From contig NZ_JABBPC010000029.1 of the NCBI RefSeq assembly GCF_012927485.1, positions 124,001-188,000 on the forward strand: DNA of 64,000 nucleotides. The letters are read 5' to 3'. Positions 3,787-44,448 of this stretch are shown piece by piece. Made by a program: the position numbers and the translations under genes. The DNA is from Polaromonas sp. Lineage in GTDB: Bacteria > Pseudomonadota > Gammaproteobacteria > Burkholderiales > Burkholderiaceae_C. The notes under the pieces are model-generated. The model was given only the letters and a program-made list of their open reading frames with translations, did not search any database and was not told the DNA's origin. Each line of letters starts with the position of its first letter. Position 1 is the first letter of the stretch.

Positions 3787-3949
3787 TCAGGCAGTGTACC
3801 GGCCCGTTCGATAGCTCCTGCAGCGCACCCCGAAAAAAGCGTGACCAGATCGCCGCGTCTGGTAGCACTTAACTGGGGTGAGGGTTGGTTCCCGGCACTT
3901 CGCCGCTATGAATCAACTGGCCTCCTACCCAAGCTTGCTACGCTTGGCT

Positions 3950-4024
3950 TCAGCGTAAGCCGAAATAAGACAGGACTACGCCGATGATGACAACAAGTCC
4001 GACGATGTAGATGATGGTGTTCAT
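3950..4024 (-). CDS. 24-residue single-span membrane peptide
   Basis: The reading frame MNTIIYIVGLVVIIGVVLSYFGLR is preceded by GAAGAG eight or so bases before the ATG, a plausible ribosome site. Nearly the whole peptide is one hydrophobic helix ending in a positively charged residue. A longer in-frame extension exists upstream but has no ribosome site and looks random. I recall near-identical tiny open frames in other proteobacteria, but no function is known to me. It stands alone between recJ and the Crp/Fnr gene. Confidence 0.6.
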   Translation of the reverse strand: MNTIIYIVGLVVIIGVVLSYFGLR

Positions 4025-4159
4025 AAGGTGCTCTTCGGGGTGTTGTTTAACGCAAGTTGATGAAATTTTCGAAACTTGATCGTTAACGCCCTGACTTCGC
4101 CCGGCTGTAGGCAGACACGCCCAAAAGTCGTCGGACTCTTGCGATGTCCCCATTCAGGC

Positions 4160-5884
4160 CTAAAGTTCCGCGCCTTCCACCAAAAAGCGCACCCGCTTGA
4201 CGCCTTGCCACTCATCGGCATCTAGCCGAAAGGCCAGTTTTACGCGAGCCGGTAAAGATTCGGTGTGGCCAAACCAGATCCCGTCCACCGGTTGGCCTTG
4301 GTGTTTGAGTTTGAGTGCCAGGTGTTTTTCGCCCACCAGCCGCTGCGAGACTATCTCAACTACTTCGCTAAAGGTGGGTGCCGCAAAACCTTGTCCCCAG
4401 ACTTCTTGGTGCAGTGCGTCGACGAGATCGACGCGCCGGTATTCTGGCGCCAGTGGGCCATCGGTGTCCAGGCGCCGCGTCAGGGTCGCGGCGTCCAACC
4501 ATTCGCTGGCGACTTGTTGCAGCGCCTGCTCAAATGCCCCGAAGTTTTCTTCGGCGATCGTACAGCCGGCGGCCATGGCGTGGCCGCCAAAGCGCAGCAA
4601 CACGCCGGGCTGTCGTTTGGCCAACAGGTCCAGCGCATCGCGGAGGTGAAAGCCGGGAATCGAACGGCCCGAGCCTTTGAGTTCATGCCCCTTGCCCGGC
4701 GCCTGGCTGGCGGCAAAAACAAAAGTTGGCCGATGCAGCTTGTCCTTGATACGCGAGGCCACGATACCCACCACACCTTCATGAAACTCGGGATTGAAAA
4801 TCGCGATGGCTGGCGGGGGCTCCTCATCCTCGTCAATCATCGCGTCGGCAGCCAGTTGGGCTTGCTCGCGCATGCCCGACTCAATGTCTCGGCGTTCGCG
4901 GTTAATGCCGTCGAGCAGGGCGGCCAGTTCGCTAGCACGCGCCCCGTCATCGGTGAGTAGGCATTCAATGCCCAGTGTCATGTCGCTGAGACGGCCCGCT
5001 GCATTAATGCGTGGTCCGAGCGCGAAACCGAAGTCAAACGTCGTTGCCATAGGTGCATGGCGTCCTGCGGCCGCGAACAAGCTGGCAATGCCAGCGGGCA
5101 GGGCCCCGGCCCGGATGCGCTTGAGCCCCTGCGCGACCAGGCGGCGGTTGTTGGCGTCTAGCTTGACCACGTCGGCCACGGTGCCGAGCGCCACCAACGG
5201 AAGCAGGGTATCGAGTTTGGGCTGCGAACTGGCATCAAATAGTCCGCGCGCTCGCAACTCGGCGCGCAGCGCAAGCAGCACATAGAAAATTACACCGACC
5301 CCGGCGATTGATTTACTCTCGAAGCGGCACGCTGGTTGGTTGGGATTGACGATGACATCGGCGGACGGCAGTACCACTTGCCCGTCTTTAAGCGCGGGCA
5401 GGTGGTGGTCAGTGACTAAAACCTGCATGCCCAGCGCTTTAGCCCGAGCCACGCCGTCGACGCTGGCGATGCCGTTGTCTACGGTTACCAGCACGTCGGC
5501 GCCGCTGGCGCTGACGCGCTCGGCAATTGGCGGTGTCAGGCCGTAGCCGTCAAGCACCCGGTCCGGTACCAGGTAGCTGACCTGTTTGGCACCCAGCAGT
5601 TTTAAGCCCCGCAGCGCCACGGCGCAGGCGGTGGCGCCATCGCAGTCGTAGTCGGCCACCACACAGATTTTTTTATCAGCGGCCATGGCGTCGGCGAGTA
5701 GCTGGGCAGCTTCCCGGCTTCCCTGCAAAGAGGCGGGCGGCAGCAGTTTGGCCAGCCCATCGTCGAGTTCGTCCATTGAACGGACGCCGCGCGCAGCATA
5801 GAGCTGTGCCAGCAGCGGGTGAATGCCTCCCTGCTGCAGGGCCCAGACGCTGCGCGGTGGCACGTCGCGTACCTGTATTTTCAT
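4160..5884 (-). CDS. recJ: RecJ, single-stranded-DNA-specific 5'-3' exonuclease
   Basis: 574 residues from the chosen ATG at 5884 (MKIQVRDVPPRSV), the usual RecJ length; an in-frame extension to 6004 has no family similarity and overlaps the next gene. DHH-family motifs are present: VVADYDCDGATA (motif I), VTVDNGIA (motif II), VTDHHLP (the DHH motif) and NPNQPAC, followed by the DHHA1 region with GSGRSIPGFHLRDAL and RFGGHAMAAG. RecJ acts in RecF-pathway recombination, base excision and mismatch repair. The start lies 34 bases downstream of the RpfE-like gene, in the same direction. Confidence 0.96.
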   Translation of the reverse strand: MKIQVRDVPPRSVWALQQGGIHPLLAQLYAARGVRSMDELDDGLAKLLPPASLQGSREAAQLLADAMAADKKICVVADYDCDGATACAVALRGLKLLGAKQVSYLVPDRVLDGYGLTPPIAERVSASGADVLVTVDNGIASVDGVARAKALGMQVLVTDHHLPALKDGQVVLPSADVIVNPNQPACRFESKSIAGVGVIFYVLLALRAELRARGLFDASSQPKLDTLLPLVALGTVADVVKLDANNRRLVAQGLKRIRAGALPAGIASLFAAAGRHAPMATTFDFGFALGPRINAAGRLSDMTLGIECLLTDDGARASELAALLDGINRERRDIESGMREQAQLAADAMIDEDEEPPPAIAIFNPEFHEGVVGIVASRIKDKLHRPTFVFAASQAPGKGHELKGSGRSIPGFHLRDALDLLAKRQPGVLLRFGGHAMAAGCTIAEENFGAFEQALQQVASEWLDAATLTRRLDTDGPLAPEYRRVDLVDALHQEVWGQGFAAPTFSEVVEIVSQRLVGEKHLALKLKHQGQPVDGIWFGHTESLPARVKLAFRLDADEWQGVKRVRFLVEGAEL

Positions 5885-35466: not shown

Positions 35467-37365
35467 ATGTACCAATTGCTTGAAACCATCAACAGCCCTG
35501 CCGATTTGCGACGGCTGCCCCGTGCCCAGCTGAAGACCTTGGCCGACGAGTTGCGTGCCTATGTGATCGACAGTGTTTCCAAAACGGGCGGTCATTTAAG
35601 CTCCAACCTTGGCACGGTAGAACTGACAGTGGCGCTGCACTATGTTTTCAATACCCCCGATGACCGCCTGGTTTGGGACGTGGGTCACCAGACTTACCCG
35701 CACAAAATTCTGACCGGGCGACGCGAGCGCATGGGCAGCCTGCGCCAGTTCGGCGGCCTCTCGGGCTTTCCCCGCAGGGACGAAAGCCCGTACGACACCT
35801 TCGGCACCGCGCATTCGTCAACCTCAATTTCTGCGGCGCTCGGCATGGCGCTGGCTTCCCAGCAAAAGGGGGAAGACCGTCACGCAATAGCCGTCATTGG
35901 TGACGGGTCAATGAGTGCCGGCATGGCGTTTGAGGCCCTGAACAATGCGGGCGTTCATGACGACTGCAAGTTATTGGTCGTGCTCAACGACAACGACATG
36001 AGCATCAGCCCTCCGGTGGGCGCCTTGAATCGCTATTTGGCCCAATTGATGAGCGGGCGTTTTTACGCGTCAGCCAAAAATGTCGGCAAGCAGGTTCTCA
36101 GGGTAGCGCCACCGCTGCTGGAACTGGCCAAACGACTCGAGGCACACGCCAAGGGCATGGTGGTACCCGCGACGTTGTTTGAAAACTTTGGTTTTAACTA
36201 CATCGGTCCCATCGACGGTCATGATCTGGAGTCCCTGATCCCCACGCTGGAAAATATCAAGCACCTCAAGGGACCGCAGTTCCTGCACGTCGTTACCAAA
36301 AAGGGCCAGGGCTACAAGTTGGCCGAAGCCGACCCCATCGCCTACCACGGCCCCGGTAAGTTTGATCCGGCCATGGGCCTGCAGAAATCCAGTGCGCCGG
36401 CCAAGCAGACATTCACTCAAGTCTTCGGCCACTGGCTCTGCGATATGGCGGAGCAAGATAGCCGCTTGGTCGGCATCACCCCGGCGATGCGTGAAGGCTC
36501 GGGCATGGTCGAGTTTCACCAGCGCTTTCCCAGCCGCTACCACGACGTGGGCATTGCCGAGCAGCACGCGGTGACCTTTGCCGCTGGCATGGCCTGCGAG
36601 GGGCTGAAACCGGTGGTCGCGATCTATTCGACCTTTTTACAGCGCGGCTACGACCAGTTGATTCACGACGTGGCGTTGCAGAACCTGCCGGTTGTGTTTG
36701 CGCTTGACCGGGCGGGCCTGGTGGGCGCCGATGGTGCCACCCATGCAGGCGCGTACGACATCCCCTTTCTGCGCTGTATTCCCAACATGAGCATCGCCTG
36801 CCCGGCCGATGAGAACGAATGCCGCAAGCTCTTGACCTCAGCCTTTGAGCAGAATCATCCGGTGGCCGTGCGGTATCCGCGCGGACCGGGTGCTGGCGTC
36901 GCAACCGAGGCCGGGTTGCAGTCGCTGCCGTTTGGCAAGGGTGAGATTCGCCGGGAGGGGACCGGCATCGCCATCCTGGCCTTTGGTACCTTGCTGTATC
37001 CCGCGCTGCTAGCTGCGGAAAAGCTCGGGGCGACCGTGGTTAATATGCGTTGGGCGAAGCCGCTTGACATTGAGCTGTTGCTGAAAGTGGCCGCCAGCCA
37101 CGAAGCGTTGGTCACCGTGGAAGAAGGCGCCATCATGGGCGGAGCTGGCAGTGCTGTAGGCGAAGCGCTTCAGGCCGCAGGCGTCGTCAAACCGCTGCTT
37201 CAGTTGGGCCTGAAGGACGAATTTATCGAGCATGGCGACCCGGCCAAGTTGCTGGCTTTGCAAGGTCTGGACGCTGCTGGCATCGAGGCGTCAATCAGCG
37301 GTCGTTTTGGTGCGCTCCAGCAATCCGACAGGCCTGCCAAGCCGGCACTCAAGTCGGTGGCTTAA
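35467..37365 (+). CDS. dxs: 1-deoxy-D-xylulose-5-phosphate synthase
   Basis: 632 residues. Thiamine-diphosphate-binding region [22 protein letters not shown]...[13 protein letters not shown]-terminal [17 protein letters not shown] and [17 protein letters not shown], and C-terminal transketolase part [17 protein letters not shown] and HGDPAKLL. First enzyme of the MEP pathway, condensing pyruvate and glyceraldehyde-3-phosphate. It lies 31 bp after ispA, so the operon supplies both IPP/DMAPP precursor and its condensation. Its end converges with the selenium genes (66 bp gap). Confidence 0.97.
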
Positions 37366-37431
37366 ACTGCTTTGGCCCGCCAGGGCGCAGCATGCAAGAG
37401 TACCTGGCGAACGTGTCGACGCGTCAACGTC

Positions 37432-38496
37432 TCAGTAAACGCTGACGCCGTGTCCAGGGATGACTTCGCCGATTACCGCTGCATCGCCAAAACCTTGCGC
37501 CCGGAAAATCGCCAGCACTTCAGCGGCGCTGTTGGCGCTGCAGGAAACCAGCAAGCCGCCCGAAGTTTGCGGATCGCTGAGCAAAGCCTTGTCTACTTCC
37601 GAAAATGTGGCGGGCAAGCTGATCTCAGAGCCATAGCTGGCCCAATTCCGTCCAGAAGCTCCGGTGATGTAGCCTTGCTCCGCGAGCGCGCTTGCGCCAA
37701 CGACCAGCGGTGTGCGGGTCCAGTCGATTCGGACCTGGAGGCCCGCGCCGCGCGCCAGCTCCAAGGTGTGGCCCGCCAAGCCAAAGCCGGTGATGTCGGT
37801 CAGTGCGTGTACGCCATCGAGTTGGGCCAGTGCAATGCCGGGCTTGTTAAGCTGCGTGGTCAGAGCAATCATGCGGGTATAACCTTCAGCGCTCAGCGCA
37901 TCTTTTTTAAGCGCCGCGGAAAGTATGCCGATGCCCAGCGGCTTACCCAGTACCAGCACATCACCCACTTGGGCGCCTGAATTTTTCTTCACGCGGGACG
38001 GGTGAACCAACCCCAGCACGACGAGTCCATAAATCGGTTCTACGGAATCAATCGTGTGACCGCCCGCAATTGGAATACCGGCGTCGCGGCAAACGTCCTG
38101 GCCACCGCGCAAAATTGCGCCGATTGTCTCCAGCGGCAGCACATTGATGGGCATGCCGACCAGCCCCAGCGCCATGATGGGCGTGCCCCCCATGGCATAG
38201 ACGTCGCTGATGGCGTTGGTGGCGGCGATGCGGCCAAAGTCATACGGGTCGTCAACGATAGGCATGAAGAAGTCGGTGGTGGCGATCAGTGCCTGTTCGT
38301 CGTTGAGTTGGTATACCGCAGCGTCGTCGGCAGTCTCGATGCCCACCAGCAGCTGCGGCGGAATCGGCAGGTTGCTGGAGTTTTTAAGAATCTCGCTCAG
38401 AACGCCCGGGGCGATCTTGCAACCGCAGCCGCCTCCGTGCGACAGGCTGGTTAATCGGGGTGTGGCGCGCGTTATTGGAGTGTCAGGCGTAATCAT
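37432..38496 (-). CDS. senC: Selenophosphate synthase (SelD/SenC) of the selenoneine cluster
   Basis: 354 residues from ATG 38496 (MITPDTPITRA); a start at 38556 would overlap senB and has no advantage. The active loop reads HGGGCGCKIAP, with C24, C26 and K27 aligning with Cys17, Cys19 and Lys20 of E. coli SelD. Other SelD signatures are DDAAVYQLND, AISDVYAMGGTPIMAL, AGGHTIDS, DITGFGLAGHTLELA and LSDPQTSGGLLVSC. It makes selenophosphate from selenide and ATP. It lies 22 bp downstream of senB in the same direction. It may also serve tRNA selenation or selenocysteine if those genes exist elsewhere. Confidence 0.92.
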   Translation of the reverse strand: MITPDTPITRATPRLTSLSHGGGCGCKIAPGVLSEILKNSSNLPIPPQLLVGIETADDAAVYQLNDEQALIATTDFFMPIVDDPYDFGRIAATNAISDVYAMGGTPIMALGLVGMPINVLPLETIGAILRGGQDVCRDAGIPIAGGHTIDSVEPIYGLVVLGLVHPSRVKKNSGAQVGDVLVLGKPLGIGILSAALKKDALSAEGYTRMIALTTQLNKPGIALAQLDGVHALTDITGFGLAGHTLELARGAGLQVRIDWTRTPLVVGASALAEQGYITGASGRNWASYGSEISLPATFSEVDKALLSDPQTSGGLLVSCSANSAAEVLAIFRAQGFGDAAVIGEVIPGHGVSVY

Positions 38497-38518
38497 CAGA
38501 AAGTGTTTAGAGGTGTTT

Positions 38519-39541
38519 TTAAATACGCGCAGCGCGCTGCGCCGGACTGTCTTCATTTAATGCAGATGCAAGCAAGTTTATGACAAGGCGTTTTTCTTCT
38601 TGCGGCTCAAACAGATAGGCACGCGCTCTGCATTGCCTTTGCAGCAGGTTCAAAAAGCCAGTCTCTGCCGCACAGCGTCTGATGAGAGCTGCAAGCTGCG
38701 CATCATCACCCGGCGAAAAGTACCCGGCATAGTCCTCCCCCAACATGCCGATATTGCCGCTGATGCGTGAGGCCAACACCGGCGTTCCCGACTGCACTGC
38801 CTCCAGAATGACTTGCGCGCCGCCCTCCATGTTCGAGCAATTCACCAGTACGTGCGCCCGTTTGATGTGCTGGCGCGTCGCAGCGCGCGGCAGACCCTCC
38901 AGCCAGCGGTAGCGGGGCGCGCGCAGTCCCGTGGTGCGGGCGGCCTCTGCGAAACGCGGCTCCAGCGCCAATCCTATTTGGTCAAAGTGAATGCCCGCCG
39001 GAAAGTCGTGGGACGCCGTCCGCATATAAGTCAACGGATCTTTTTCTTCGCGCAGATGGCCGACCATCAGCACACCGAAACGGCGGCTGGATTTGCGGGC
39101 TGGCGTCAATGGGGGGGCTGACTGATAAATCACTCGCGTCTTGGCGCGCCACTCCTCCGGCAGCTCCTGAAGTCCGGCGTCCTGCAACACCACAATATGA
39201 GACGCCAGTGCCAGTGACTGCTGCGCATCGGCGTTGCTGCGGATGTCACCGTAAAGATCGGTTCCGGTGAGCACCACGATCAGCGGTTTTTCGGGGGTCG
39301 CTTGTGCCCAGGCCTGGATGGAGGCGGCCGAACGGCGGGCGTGCAAGGCAATCATCGCTTGCGGCGTGTGGCGCGTGAAGTCGTCGGAGGATTCCGGCTT
39401 TCCCGGCCACTGCTGCGCCAGCGTAATGTCACAATGACTCGATAGAAATCGTGCCCAGCGGTGCGCAGTGTGCCAGTTGCCGTTGTTGGATTCGGCCATT
39501 GACGGGCTTATCAGGACTATAGTTTTGGCTTCAGATTCCAT
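38519..39541 (-). CDS. senB: Selenosugar synthase (SenB), glycosyltransferase TIGR04348-like
   Basis: 340 residues from ATG 39541 (MESEAKTIVLISPS). A GT-B glycosyltransferase: N-terminal SNNGNWHTAHRWARFL, middle VVLTGTDLYGDI, and C-terminal MVGHLREEKDPLTYM and NMEGGAQVILEAVQSGTPVLASRISGNIGMLG (the retaining GT4 pocket). Known SenB proteins join selenophosphate with UDP-N-acetylglucosamine to form a selenosugar. Position between a SelD gene and an EgtB-like senA gives strong context. The upstream extension to 39664 runs over senA and is not used. Without activity data the substrate is inferred from the family. Confidence 0.87.
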   Translation of the reverse strand: MESEAKTIVLISPSMAESNNGNWHTAHRWARFLSSHCDITLAQQWPGKPESSDDFTRHTPQAMIALHARRSAASIQAWAQATPEKPLIVVLTGTDLYGDIRSNADAQQSLALASHIVVLQDAGLQELPEEWRAKTRVIYQSAPPLTPARKSSRRFGVLMVGHLREEKDPLTYMRTASHDFPAGIHFDQIGLALEPRFAEAARTTGLRAPRYRWLEGLPRAATRQHIKRAHVLVNCSNMEGGAQVILEAVQSGTPVLASRISGNIGMLGEDYAGYFSPGDDAQLAALIRRCAAETGFLNLLQRQCRARAYLFEPQEEKRLVINLLASALNEDSPAQRAARI

Positions 39542-39611
39542 ACCTAATGCATCACCCGCTTTGCCCGGTTCGCCTTCGACAGCGAGCCCGGACCTGATTG
39601 ATTCGACCCTC

Positions 39612-40847
39612 ATGCGTAAAGGGGGAAGAGAGCTTTTGTCGCTCGCGCTGATAGACGCGCGCAATCATACGCTGCACCTGTTCAGCCAGTTCCAGAATGC
39701 GCTGGAAGGGGTTAATTTTGAAGTGCCCCAACTCGCCACGGTAAACCCTCCGGTTTGGGAACTGGGCCACGTAGGGTGGTTTCAGGAATGGTGGATAAGC
39801 CGCAACCTGCAGCGGGCACTGGGCACGCGCTGTGAGCCCGACCATGCGCGACTGGCCTCCCTGGAACCGAACGCAGATCGTTGGTGGGACTCTGGCCAGG
39901 TGGCGCATGACACGCGCTGGTCGCTGGCCTTGCCGGACGTGGGCAGTTCCCGGGCGTATTTGCTTGACACTTTGGAAAGCACGCTGGACCTGCTGGGAAA
40001 GATCGGGAATCAGGACGAAAGTGATGACGCGCTTTACTTTTACCGCCTGTGCCTGTTTCACGAAGACATGCACGGCGAGGCCTTTGCCTACACCGCCCAA
40101 ACCTTGGGCTTGCCGCTGGACAAGCCTTTGCGAGCCGCGTTCACCCCGCCGCCAGTGGCCGTGCGCGAGCCGCTGCTGATTCCTGCCACCGTATGGCAGA
40201 TGGGTAGCGCGGCAAGCACAGGGGCCGGTTTTGTGTTCGACAACGAAAAGGCGGTGCATGCCCTCCGCGTGCCCGAGTTTGAAATCGATGCCCAGCCGGT
40301 GACTTGGGCGCAGTACGTGGAGTTTGTCGGCGATGGCGGTTACGACCGCCAAGAACTCTGGCATCCTGGAGGCTGGGAGTGGCTGCAAATTGCCGCCAGA
40401 GGGGAGGGCCGCAGAGGTCCGCGTTATGTCGAGCAGATAAGCCTGGGCAGCGGCGCCGTCCTGCAAACCCGGTTTGGTCAGCCGGTGCGCATGCAAGGCG
40501 GTCAGCCGGCGATGCACATGACTTGGTGGGAGGCCGACGCCTGGTGCCGCTGGGCCGGGCGCCGTTTGCCAGCCGAAGTAGAGTGGGAAGTCGCTGCGCA
40601 CACGGCGGCGCGGCGGGGCTTTCGCTGGGGCGATGTCTGGGAGTGGATGGGTACGACGTTCCGTCCTTACCCGGGTTTTGCAGCCGATCCCTACCTGGCT
40701 TATTCGCAGCCCTGGTTCGGGTCGCACAAGGTGTTGCGCGGTGCCTCATTTGCCACCCGCGCGCGCCTTAAGCACCCGAAATATCGCAACTTCTACCTGC
40801 CTGAGCGTGACGATATTTTCTGTGGATTCAGATCTTGTTCGCCGTAG
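39612..40847 (+). CDS. senA: Selenoneine synthase (SenA), EgtB/DinB-type sulfoxide-synthase-like iron enzyme
   Basis: 411 residues from ATG 39612; the frame stays open upstream to 39468, so the start is not certain. N-terminal DinB-like domain with iron ligands: a His in WELGHVGWFQEWW (about 53) and H150-x3-H154-x-E156 in FHEDMHGEA, as in EgtB. The C-terminal FGE-sulfatase domain has ATVWQMGS, MTWWEADAWCRWAGRRLPAEVEWE and VLRGASFATRAR. SenA couples hercynine with the selenosugar in an oxidative C-Se bond step. Divergent from senB-senC, as in a dedicated cluster. Hercynine would need EgtD, not in the window. Confidence 0.88.
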   Translation: MRKGGRELLSLALIDARNHTLHLFSQFQNALEGVNFEVPQLATVNPPVWELGHVGWFQEWWISRNLQRALGTRCEPDHARLASLEPNADRWWDSGQVAHDTRWSLALPDVGSSRAYLLDTLESTLDLLGKIGNQDESDDALYFYRLCLFHEDMHGEAFAYTAQTLGLPLDKPLRAAFTPPPVAVREPLLIPATVWQMGSAASTGAGFVFDNEKAVHALRVPEFEIDAQPVTWAQYVEFVGDGGYDRQELWHPGGWEWLQIAARGEGRRGPRYVEQISLGSGAVLQTRFGQPVRMQGGQPAMHMTWWEADAWCRWAGRRLPAEVEWEVAAHTAARRGFRWGDVWEWMGTTFRPYPGFAADPYLAYSQPWFGSHKVLRGASFATRARLKHPKYRNFYLPERDDIFCGFRSCSP

Positions 40848-40865
40848 CAGGAGCGCCGAACTAAT

Positions 40866-40898
40866 AAAGCCTCTTTGGAGGCTACCGCGGTTTTTAAT
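40866..40898. terminator. Weak bidirectional hairpin between senA and the ModE-like gene
   Basis: AGCCTC at 40868-40873 and GAGGCT at 40878-40883 form a six-bp stem with the loop TTTG. On the plus strand it is followed after nine bases by TTTTT; on the minus strand by TTTATTAG. It is located between the convergent stops of senA and the regulator, where a terminator is expected. Confidence 0.5.
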
Positions 40899-41997
40899 CA
40901 GCTTTTTTGTTGCGGTAACTCCACCACGGCAACGCCGCACGCAACGACAGCACCTGCCCGCTTTGGGCGTGATCGCCGTTATATCCCGGCAGTTTTTTCA
41001 GCGTGATTTGCCAGTCACGGCTCCGCAGTTCGTTGAGAAGCGCCTGCACCTGCGGCGCCGGCAATTCGGACTTCAGGCACACCAAGTGGTAGCGCTCCTG
41101 TATCAGAGGCACAAAGCCCAATCCTTTCTCAACCGCGGCAGCTTCTATGCCTAACCCGGCATCCGCCGAGTTGCTGGCAATGGCTTGGGCCACCGCCGTG
41201 TGGGAGGGCTCCTGGCTGGCGTAACCCTGAATATCCGACGCCAGCAGGTTGGCTTCGGCCAGTAGCTGGTCTAGCAACACACGCGTGCCGGCTCCTTCGG
41301 CGCGGTTAACGTAGCGAAGACCCGGTCGCTTCAAATCGGTGAGGCTGGCAATGCCGAGGGGGTTGTTTTTAGCCACGATGAGGCCCTGCTGGCGATGCGC
41401 GAAACCGATCAATTTATGAAGACCCGGCTTCAGAAGGCTTCGGTAGGTCTGTGCGGCCACCGAGTTGCTGCCGGGTTGTTCCAGCGTGTGAAAGCCCGCC
41501 ATCTTGCAGCGTCCCGCGTTCAACGCCGCAATCGCATCGACACTGCCCATGAACCGGATGTCGAGGTGAAGGCCATGTGCGCTGGCTTGCTCGCGCAGGG
41601 CAGACAGCGCCGCATCGTGGCTCGCGTACAGCGTGAGTACGTGGATATTCTCGTCAAACGCGGTTGAAAATGCGCGTTCAATGTCCCCCCGCAGGGCCTC
41701 AATCTGCGGCGCGAGTCGGGCCTGCGCCTGACGCTCGGCCCACAGCAATTTGTCGCCAAATTCGGTCAGTCGGGCGCGCTGGCCCTTGTCCCAGACAATC
41801 AGCGGCCGCGACAAGGTTCGTTCCCAGTCCTTGAGCGCACCCCAGACGTTCCGATAAGAAAGGTCCAGCGCTTTGGACGCCTTGGAGATGGAGCCCTGGT
41901 CGCGCACTGCCTGGAGCAGGTCCATCAAGGGATTGCGTATCAGGGCGTCTTTGCCGCGCTGTGGCGTCAAGAGGTAAGAGAGTTCGACTTTATGCAT
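40894..41997 (-). CDS. ModE-type HTH regulator with periplasmic-binding-protein-like domain
   Basis: 367 residues. The N-terminal winged helix resembles ModE/LysR DNA-binding domains: NPLMDLLQAVRDQGSISKASKALDLSYRNVWGALKDWE. It is followed by a PBP-like (type 2) domain with VNRAEGAGTRVLLDQLL and ASNSADAGLGIEAAAVE, rather than molybdate-binding TOBE repeats. Such proteins sense an oxyanion and repress its transporter. It is divergent from tupBCA (167 bp apart), so it likely regulates tungstate uptake. The ligand may be tungstate or molybdate; this is inference from position. Confidence 0.82.
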   Translation of the reverse strand: MHKVELSYLLTPQRGKDALIRNPLMDLLQAVRDQGSISKASKALDLSYRNVWGALKDWERTLSRPLIVWDKGQRARLTEFGDKLLWAERQAQARLAPQIEALRGDIERAFSTAFDENIHVLTLYASHDAALSALREQASAHGLHLDIRFMGSVDAIAALNAGRCKMAGFHTLEQPGSNSVAAQTYRSLLKPGLHKLIGFAHRQQGLIVAKNNPLGIASLTDLKRPGLRYVNRAEGAGTRVLLDQLLAEANLLASDIQGYASQEPSHTAVAQAIASNSADAGLGIEAAAVEKGLGFVPLIQERYHLVCLKSELPAPQVQALLNELRSRDWQITLKKLPGYNGDHAQSGQVLSLRAALPWWSYRNKKAD

Positions 41998-42100
41998 GGA
42001 GGGTGGAGGCGATGACGTGATTATGAGCGCGACCCCCAGTGCGAACAGACCGGCTTCAAGCCCCGGGAAGTTTGATTTTCCTATGCAAACGACTTCATAA

Positions 42101-42112
42101 CGGTGATTACCG
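42101..42112. promoter_or_regulatory. Possible operator between the ModE-like regulator and tupB
   Basis: CGGT at 42101-42104 and ACCG at 42109-42112 flank GATT, within the 167-bp space between the divergent genes. The 12-bp sequence is close to a palindrome, and ModE-like proteins bind inverted repeats. No match to the E. coli ModE consensus was seen, so the call is tentative. Confidence 0.25.
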
Positions 42113-42164
42113 ATGCGTACTCAGGGCCTTGTGTCCTAAGATAAAGTTCCGCAAAACCTCTCGC

Positions 42165-42929
42165 ATGAACACCTTTTCAGACAGCGCCGTCACGGCTTTT
42201 TCGCTCATCACCTCGTTCGATCCCATGTTGGCGAGCATCGTCCTCCGATCGCTGTCTGTGAGCGCGACCGCCTGTGTCATCGCCTGCAGTACTGGTTTGC
42301 TGCTGGGCAGTTGGCTTGGGGTGGCGCGCTTCCAGGGGCGTGGCGTGGTCTTGGCGTTGCTGAACACCGCACTGGCTTTGCCGTCCGTGGTGGTCGGACT
42401 GGTGGTGTACCTACTGCTGTCGCGCACCGGACCGTTGGGTTTTTTGGGGTGGCTGTTTTCCTTCAAGGCGATGGTGCTGGCGCAGTCGGTGCTGGTGCTA
42501 CCGGTCGTCATGGCGCTGGTAAGGCAGACCATTGAAGATGCCGACCGAAGCCATGGCGAACAGTTTCAGTCGCTCGGCGCACGCCGCTTCATGCGCAGCC
42601 TGATCCTTTTATGGGACGAGCGCTATGCGTTGCTGACGGTGCTGATTGCCGCGTTCGGCCGCGCAATTTCCGAGGTCGGCGCCGTTATGGTGGTGGGCGG
42701 CAATATTGATGGTTTCACGCGCGTCATGACGACGTCCATTGCGCTGGAAACCAGCAAGGGAGATTTGCCCCTGGCGCTGGCGCTGGGTATTTTGCTGCTC
42801 GGCATTGTGCTGGTGCTGAATGTTCTGATTGCGCTGGTGCGGCGTTGGCGCGAGCAGGCCGGAGATCCGCTGGCAGACGCGATGTCGACGCTGGCAGAGC
42901 GCCCGGTCGCCGGAGGCTTGCACGCGTGA
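42165..42929 (+). CDS. tupB: Tungstate ABC transporter, permease (TupB-like)
   Basis: 254 residues from MNTFSDSAVTAF at 42165. About five membrane helices in the BPD-transport (ModB/TupB) fold, with the EAA-type loop HGEQFQSLGARRFMRSLILLWDERY and AFGRAISEVGAVMVVGGNIDGFTRVMTTSIALETSKGDLPLALALG, a segment characteristic of TupB. Imports the oxyanion together with TupC and TupA. Its stop is overlapped by the tupC GTG start (GTGA). An in-frame extension to 42039 is probably not translated. Confidence 0.88.
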   Translation: MNTFSDSAVTAFSLITSFDPMLASIVLRSLSVSATACVIACSTGLLLGSWLGVARFQGRGVVLALLNTALALPSVVVGLVVYLLLSRTGPLGFLGWLFSFKAMVLAQSVLVLPVVMALVRQTIEDADRSHGEQFQSLGARRFMRSLILLWDERYALLTVLIAAFGRAISEVGAVMVVGGNIDGFTRVMTTSIALETSKGDLPLALALGILLLGIVLVLNVLIALVRRWREQAGDPLADAMSTLAERPVAGGLHA

Positions 42930-43615
42930 CACAACTTTTTGATCTGCAGGCCATTAACGTGCGCTTCGGACACATCAACGCGCTGACCGCCTGCACGCTG
43001 CGCGTCAAAGCCGGTGAACGGTTGGCGCTAGTGGGCGCGAACGGCAGTGGCAAGAGCACCCTGCTGCGCACACTGCATGGTCTGGTGCGGCCGGTGGCGG
43101 GGAACTTTCAGTGTGATTTGAATGCCCGCCAGGCGATGCTGTTTCAGCGTCCCTACATGTTGCGCGCCAGCGTTCTCAATAATGTGGCATTGGGACTGTG
43201 GTTAAAAGGCGTGGCCTGGAAGCCTGCCAAAGCGCAGGCATTGGAGGCGCTTGCGCGCGTGGGCCTGGAAGACCTGGCGCACCGCGGTGCCAAAGCGCTG
43301 TCGGGCGGGCAGCAGCAGCGTGTCGCACTGGCGCGGGCCTGGGCGCTCAAGCCGCAGGTCTTGCTGCTCGACGAACCTACGTCCAGCCTGGACCCCACGG
43401 CCAAGCGCGAGGTGGAGCGCCTGATGGCTGAATTCGCGGACGCCGGTATGACACTGATTTTTAGCAGTCACAACCTCGGCCAGGTCAAACGTCTGGCGAG
43501 CCGTGTCATCTATCTGGAGCAAGGGCGCCTGGTGGCTGATTTGTTGACGGAAGCTTTCTTTAACGGGCCGTTGCCTGAAGCAGCTGAAATTTTTTTAAAG
43601 GGAGAACTTGGATGA
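42926..43615 (+). CDS. tupC: Tungstate ABC transporter, ATPase (TupC-like)
   Basis: 229 residues from GTG 42926, with GGAGG ten bases upstream. Walker A GANGSGKST, signature LSGGQQQRVALARA, Walker B VLLLDEPTSSLD. Length is short, without the C-terminal molybdate-sensing MOP domain found in ModC, which favours the TupC type. Overlaps tupB at its start and tupA at its end (ATGA), so the three genes form a tightly coupled operon. Confidence 0.88.
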   Translation: MTQLFDLQAINVRFGHINALTACTLRVKAGERLALVGANGSGKSTLLRTLHGLVRPVAGNFQCDLNARQAMLFQRPYMLRASVLNNVALGLWLKGVAWKPAKAQALEALARVGLEDLAHRGAKALSGGQQQRVALARAWALKPQVLLLDEPTSSLDPTAKREVERLMAEFADAGMTLIFSSHNLGQVKRLASRVIYLEQGRLVADLLTEAFFNGPLPEAAEIFLKGELG

Positions 43616-44448
43616 ACGGTTTAAACATGAAGGGGAGCCTTGTTAGCTCTATCCGGGTCGTGGCGCTTGCATCGCTTGTGTTTGCAGCGACTGTTTCGAC
43701 AGCGCAAACACCCAGCATTGTGATGGCCTCGACCACCTCCACCGAGCAGTCCGGGCTGTTCGGTGTCCTGTTGCCTGAGTTTAAAAAAGCCTCGGGGATC
43801 GACGTGAAAGTGGTGTCGGTCGGCACGGGTCAAGCCATCGACATGGGTCGACGCGGCGACGCGGATGTGCTGTTTGTGCACGACCAGGTGGCCGAAGAGA
43901 AAGTGGTGGCTGAAGGATTTGTTCTGAAGCGTTTCGCGGTGATGTACAACGACTTCGTGCTGATTGGCCCGGCGGCGGACCCGGCGCAGGTCAAGGGCAA
44001 AGACATCGCCCTGGCGCTGCAAAAAATCAATACCACGAATGCCGGATTTATTTCGCGCGGTGACAAAAGCGGCACCCATGCCGCCGAGCTTCGCTACTGG
44101 AAAACGGCGGGGGTGACGGTGCCAGCTTTTGCCAACTACAAAGCCTGCGGGTGTGGCATGGGACCGGCGCTCAATATGGCCGCCAGCTTGGGCGCTTACG
44201 TCCTGGCAGACCGCGGTACCTGGCTGTCCTTCAAAAATCGCGCCGACCTGGCCGTGCTGGTGGAGGGTGACAGCCGCCTTTTCAATCAATATGGCGTGAT
44301 GGTGGTCAACCCCGCCAAATATCCGCAAACCAAAGTTGTTGAATCGCAAAAGTTTGTCGACTGGGTGACGTCGCCGGTCGGGCAAGCAGTGATCGCCGGC
44401 TACAAGATCAATGGCGAACAGCTGTTTTTCCCCAACGCGGCGAAATAG
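43612..44448 (+). CDS. tupA: Tungstate-binding periplasmic protein (TupA)
   Basis: 278 residues with a signal peptide (GSLVSSIRVVALASLVFAATVSTAQ). The TupA-type ligand motif MASTTSTEQSGLFGVLLPEF and VSVGTGQAIDMGRRGDADVLFVHD are diagnostic; FISRGDKSGTH also matches. TupA binds tungstate with very high selectivity. It lies third in the operon after permease and ATPase, which is unusual for binding proteins but seen in Tup loci. Tungstate could supply tungsten or molybdenum enzymes such as formate dehydrogenase or aldehyde oxidoreductase not in this window. Confidence 0.92.
   Translation: MNGLNMKGSLVSSIRVVALASLVFAATVSTAQTPSIVMASTTSTEQSGLFGVLLPEFKKASGIDVKVVSVGTGQAIDMGRRGDADVLFVHDQVAEEKVVAEGFVLKRFAVMYNDFVLIGPAADPAQVKGKDIALALQKINTTNAGFISRGDKSGTHAAELRYWKTAGVTVPAFANYKACGCGMGPALNMAASLGAYVLADRGTWLSFKNRADLAVLVEGDSRLFNQYGVMVVNPAKYPQTKVVESQKFVDWVTSPVGQAVIAGYKINGEQLFFPNAAK

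Follow-up and report, generated by a model that had tools for sequence, protein, structure and literature searches.

The 64,000-nucleotide stretch of Polaromonas sp. DNA analysed here (the window) most probably carries a standard sen cluster for selenoneine biosynthesis, a reading to which we assign a probability of about 0.94 on the sequence evidence. As judged from the genes present, the selenoneine pathway is genetically complete and the cluster is probably working; it is genuine but ordinary for its family, a new example of a known pathway. The cluster predicts selenoneine, a selenium antioxidant, in this Polaromonas bacterium, and a literature search for Polaromonas together with selenoneine found no paper.

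The primary report of the pathway is reportedly that of Kayrouz et al. in Nature in 2022. The published route runs from selenophosphate (SenC) via a selenosugar (SenB) and formation of a C-Se bond to hercynine (SenA) to a breakdown that yields selenoneine (PMC9814287), and the same pathway is described in excerpts of PMC10702425 and PMC10903977. In the Polaromonas strain, SenC (SelD) would thus convert selenide and ATP to selenophosphate, SenB would place the selenium onto a sugar donated by a UDP-sugar, and SenA, an O2- and iron-dependent EgtB-type enzyme, would join the selenosugar to hercynine, supplied by the EgtD encoded on another contig (C34); the selenoxide from the SenA step would then break down to selenoneine. 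The reactions and the expression attributed to the cluster would follow from published V. paradoxus work, and gene identity, active-site residues and context from the present analysis. The initial annotation had noticed a match to the published pathway, and this held: SenA, SenB and SelD all reached their curated cut-offs and EgtD is present.

The three genes are adjacent within 37432-40847, with senA opposed to senB-senC as first described (Table 1). The senC ATG overlaps the end of senB, ATG 38496 being an alternative start; the likely senB start is ATG 39541; and senA has an annotation-style ATG at 39612 and a longest ORF (39468-40847) from GTG 39468. An Rfam scan of the 64-kb window gave no match at gathering score.

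Table 1. Features of the sen locus, in window positions.
Feature	Position	Strand	Description
selD/senC	37432..38556	-	Selenide water dikinase (selenophosphate synthase); NCBIfam and PDB matches, loop
senB	38519..39541	-	Selenosugar synthase (GT-B Se-glycosyltransferase); longest ORF 38519-39664
senA	39525..40847	+	Selenoneine synthase (EgtB-like non-haem iron enzyme); start 39525 is proposed
Inter-ATG stretch	39542..39611	.	70 bp, senB ATG to first senA ATG

The glycosyltransferase, initially described as GT-B of the SenB type, scored 439 bits against TIGR04348 (cut-off 300; E 7.6e-132, far beyond chance), which NCBI names 'selenoneine biosynthesis selenosugar synthase SenB'. It matched the solved structures 8k5u, 8fbx, 8jjq and 8jjn in the PDB (E about 1e-86), and the search against a characterised Variovorax protein that had been proposed aligned 328 positions with the V. 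paradoxus 8fbx fragment, 50.0% of them identical. N20, T23, H58, R155, K158 and E231 (V. paradoxus numbering) are all present in the window SenB as in V. paradoxus, and these positions are invariant in 111/111 relatives; for N20, T23, K158 and E231, mutation shows that they matter for SenB according to an excerpt of PMC10891094. The protein thus belongs to the TIGR04348 equivalog, and its catalytic K158 as well as N20, T23 and E231 are in place. At position 235 the window SenB has Q instead of the H of the published motif EGGAHV: among the 111 SenB relatives it was H in 93, N in eight, Q in six, T in three and L in one, and changes of H235 affected activity partly only, as stated in the same excerpt (PMC10891094). 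The nearest named SenB loci were all from Polaromonas (13/13; 70-81% identity).

SelD scored 537.7 bits against NF002098 (NCBIfam cut-off 299) and 429 bits against TIGR00476 (cut-off 125), the match to the curated models (E 1e-161) being far beyond chance, and it matched PDB 3u0o at E 8e-98. Its Cys/Lys loop, reported as intact at the outset, read SHGGGCGCK in the ORF translation; the SelD/SenC that adjoins senB therefore has the catalytic Cys and Lys in GCGCK, and we take Cys17 and Lys20 of the loop to have the catalytic roles.

Hercynine supply was sought beyond the window, in a genome of 3.51 Mb and 37 contigs that is 99.99% complete per its record. The egtD gene, to be looked for elsewhere in the genome according to the initial annotation, was found at C34:72994-73899, its product scoring 333.4 bits against PF10017 and 355.7 against TIGR03438 (cut-off 290.9); EgtD is the enzyme that makes hercynine. 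The strain's own EgtB is encoded on C34 as well, and scored 547.3 against TIGR03440 (cut-off 360) and 346.6 against the SenA model, below its cut-off of 420. Since egtD lies about 6.5 kb from this separate ergothioneine-type EgtB, the strain probably draws on a single pool of hercynine for both ergothioneine and selenoneine.

SenA scored 498.9 bits against NF041186 (selenoneine synthase SenA; E 1.2e-149, far beyond chance), matched PDB 8k5i/8ryz at E about 1e-111, with OvsA and EgtB structures much weaker, and was 48.4% identical over 409 positions to the characterised Variovorax protein (V. paradoxus 8k5i fragment). The three His and the Glu of the HxxxH-x-E pattern that had marked it as EgtB-like are present at nt 39768, 40059, 40071 and 40077, and are kept in 108, 109, 106 and 110 of 110 other aligned SenA-group sequences. 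A true ergothioneine-type EgtB, lying beside selD and the glycosyltransferase by chance at a locus that makes ergothioneine, would fit the homology of SenA and EgtB with their common iron-binding residues, the 230.7 bits that TIGR03440 (EgtB) still gives the window SenA, and hercynine being available for either route. Yet several lines of evidence make it highly improbable: i) the window protein reached the SenA cut-off of 420 and missed the EgtB cut-off of 360; ii) it carries the SenA letter at 17/17 positions separating the SenA from the EgtB groups, which were assigned by comparing BLAST scores to the window SenA with those to the own EgtB, in agreement with the tree; iii) in a FastTree phylogeny of 116 sequences with midpoint root, a split of 111 versus 5 (local support 100) placed it together with V. 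paradoxus SenA (VpSenA) among the 111, the EgtB group consisting of five sequences only (the own EgtB and four others also EgtB by BLAST); and iv) the genome holds the separate EgtB above its cut-off. Identity with EgtB was therefore rejected on the missed cut-off, the tree and the diagnostic positions. Clustering with EgtB had been named beforehand as an outcome that would count against a selenoneine cluster, as had a genome lacking EgtD; EgtD is present, and SenA fell instead on the VpSenA side, with cut-offs and residues in agreement, and is a member of the NF041186 equivalog. Tree distance was 1.90 from the window SenA to VpSenA and 4.33 to the own EgtB. The smallest clade with both the window SenA and VpSenA (67 tips) had weak support (47); the tree therefore places the protein within SenA without making it a close relative of VpSenA.

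Two further explanations concern the product. That the selenosugar of SenB-SenC serves another selenium product, besides or in place of selenoneine, is a very unlikely reading of this locus: 11 relatives in which senB adjoins a selD-type gene had no SenA above cut-off and EgtD was not found in them, but here SenA, SenB, SenC and EgtD are all present, and the window SenA is of the VpSenA type in the tree. A decayed or silent cluster without any product is scarcely credible. What speaks for it is no more than a simple scan of 37300-41100 that found no sigma-70-like promoter (shuffles average 1.0); on the other hand, the three frames are open at full length, the catalytic residues of SenB and SenA are intact, and the 13 named Polaromonas relatives each retain SenA, SenB and SenC matches in the same layout, SenC of L157 matching in its best segment at only 37% identity.

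Among known systems, the sen cluster of V. paradoxus DSM 30034 has the same SenA, SenB and SenC, and the window SenB and SenA match solved V. paradoxus-type structures; the window differs from it in being about 50% identical and in having Q, not H, at SenB position 235. When the V. paradoxus type cluster was sought in 399 family genomes, the nearest SenB among the matches listed was 64-68% identical to its fragment. The EgtB/EgtD ergothioneine pathway likewise takes hercynine from EgtD and uses a homologous iron enzyme, and the genome has both; that pathway uses sulfur, whereas the window cluster would use selenium and its SenA is below the EgtB cut-off. OvsA (ovoselenol, selenoxide synthase) is the next-best solved-structure relative of SenA (E 1.7e-59), a match far weaker than that of the SenA structures (E 1e-111).

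Across the family, SenB was above the TIGR04348 cut-off in 110/299 genomes, own genome included, and in 3/4 genomes of the own genus in this draw. All places above the cut-off except the window's own gave 111 loci, leaving out a partial match below it (G291, 228.8 bits) and weak general glycosyltransferase matches. Relative to senB, senA was divergent at 77, co-directional at two and undetected in the sequence retrieved around SenB at 32; the 77/111 is a lower bound, because the 32 SenA-less loci include contigs ending near SenB. At three of the 77 (L064, L070 and L132) the script label was EgtB-like, with an EgtB in the same stretch and the SenA match in a different frame. Thus senA does face away from senB-senC as claimed, but this layout is the family's common one, and we rejected it as a peculiarity of the strain. 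In 34 genomes without a divergent SenA at the locus, SenA was above cut-off somewhere in the genome in 20 and nowhere in 14. SelD beside SenB was stand-alone at 81 of the 111 loci, fused at 22 and not found at eight. The survey therefore describes divergent senA/senB-senC as common in the family, with SelD either stand-alone or fused. At the 22 loci (e.g., L044, L065 and L077) an oxidoreductase-fused SelD replaces the stand-alone one, which suggests that a fused SelD can fill the SenC role. At ten loci (L046, L049, L052, L061, L083, L087, L114, L136, L140 and L147) egtD is the gene immediately upstream of senB, in the same orientation, and 10/10 of these genomes have SenA above cut-off elsewhere (at L114 about 3 kb downstream). 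One relative's SenB (G266:C132:25019-25951) was read with one in-frame TGA.

EgtD was present in 8/8 compared SenA-bearing genomes, and undetected in 11 of the 14 SenB genomes without SenA above cut-off. These 11 loci are L056, L097, L099, L104, L109, L123, L125, L130, L150, L151 and L152 (genomes G203, G160, G036, G137, G264, G189, G224, G191, G196, G021 and G233), of which G191 is only 73% complete and G196 has a 168-bit SenA-family match. Within the stretch, all 11 have kept a gene of SelD type: nine the stand-alone form, two the fusion. Because these relatives keep senB and a selD-type gene without SenA or EgtD, SenB may have further uses within the family; the orphan SenB-SelD possibly feeds another selenosugar-derived product, and the pattern points to unexplored uses of the selenosugar. 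Antisense frames confounded a clustering of the neighbours of orphan-SenB loci, in which only SenB and SelD emerged as firmly shared families. Beside the orphan senB of L056, a gene at 3823-4959 (-) scored 351.3 against TIGR04553 (cut-off 250), the model for a putative selenate ABC transporter binding protein.

Elsewhere in the Polaromonas genome, SelU was found (347.9 bits, cut-off 219.75), SelA had no match, and the best tRNA-Sec hit (43.4 bits) was under the gathering score of 47, so that, beyond the sen cluster, the strain's selenium route appears confined to tRNA 2-selenouridine. A second SelD-type protein, on C17, is a fusion with a pyridine-nucleotide oxidoreductase domain (TIGR03169 519, cut-off 310; TIGR00476 289.4, cut-off 125; TIGR04369 455.1, below the cut-off of 700). 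This fusion (L041; G000:C17:28000-42000) has a CGGC motif and faces away from a putative selenate ABC transporter (TIGR04553 368.1, cut-off 250); an excerpt of PMC2398784 describes Ndh-SelD fusions of this kind that carry CxxC.

Between the senB and senA starts, the initial annotation had placed a shared 70-bp control region. The ATGs are indeed 70 bp apart, but it is doubtful that the interval is a control region, the stretch being probably at least partly coding. In the window and the 13 named Polaromonas loci the start spacings were 70, 37, 58, 76, 79 and 85 bp; the spacing of homologous starts was 37+3n in 14/14 sequences, none of which had a senA-frame stop across the stretch, and a peptide ending LIDSP-L or similar recurs ahead of the senA ATG. 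Since the senA frame is open and the length shifts only in threes, senA may start near TTG 39525 (GTG in L163), a plausible start with AGGA eight bases 5', and the 70 bp may be an N-terminal coding part of senA. A head-to-head overlap of senA and senB in Polaromonas, with senA starting at TTG 39525, 17 bp inside senB, thus has in our estimate an even chance. If true, no free intergenic control region would exist, each promoter would lie inside the other gene's coding sequence and the two pathway enzymes would be tied to one another. Several observations run counter to the overlap or temper it: i) the senB frame is likewise open in 13/14 sequences, with a stop only in L164; ii) in eight loci of equal length, for which the numbers are small, variable columns were 4, 3 and 7 at codon positions 1, 2 and 3 (of 12, 13 and 13); iii) the AGGA is also part of the senB coding sequence; and iv) of all 88 divergent loci examined, 66 have a senA frame that runs on open into senB, and 56 a senB frame that does so into senA.

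On its other side, senA adjoins a regulator of LysR/PBP type and an ABC transporter of the tungstate type (window 40894-44448), whose TupA- and TupB-like genes score below equivalog cut-offs. The same regulator and transporter types lie beside senA again in many Polaromonas loci.
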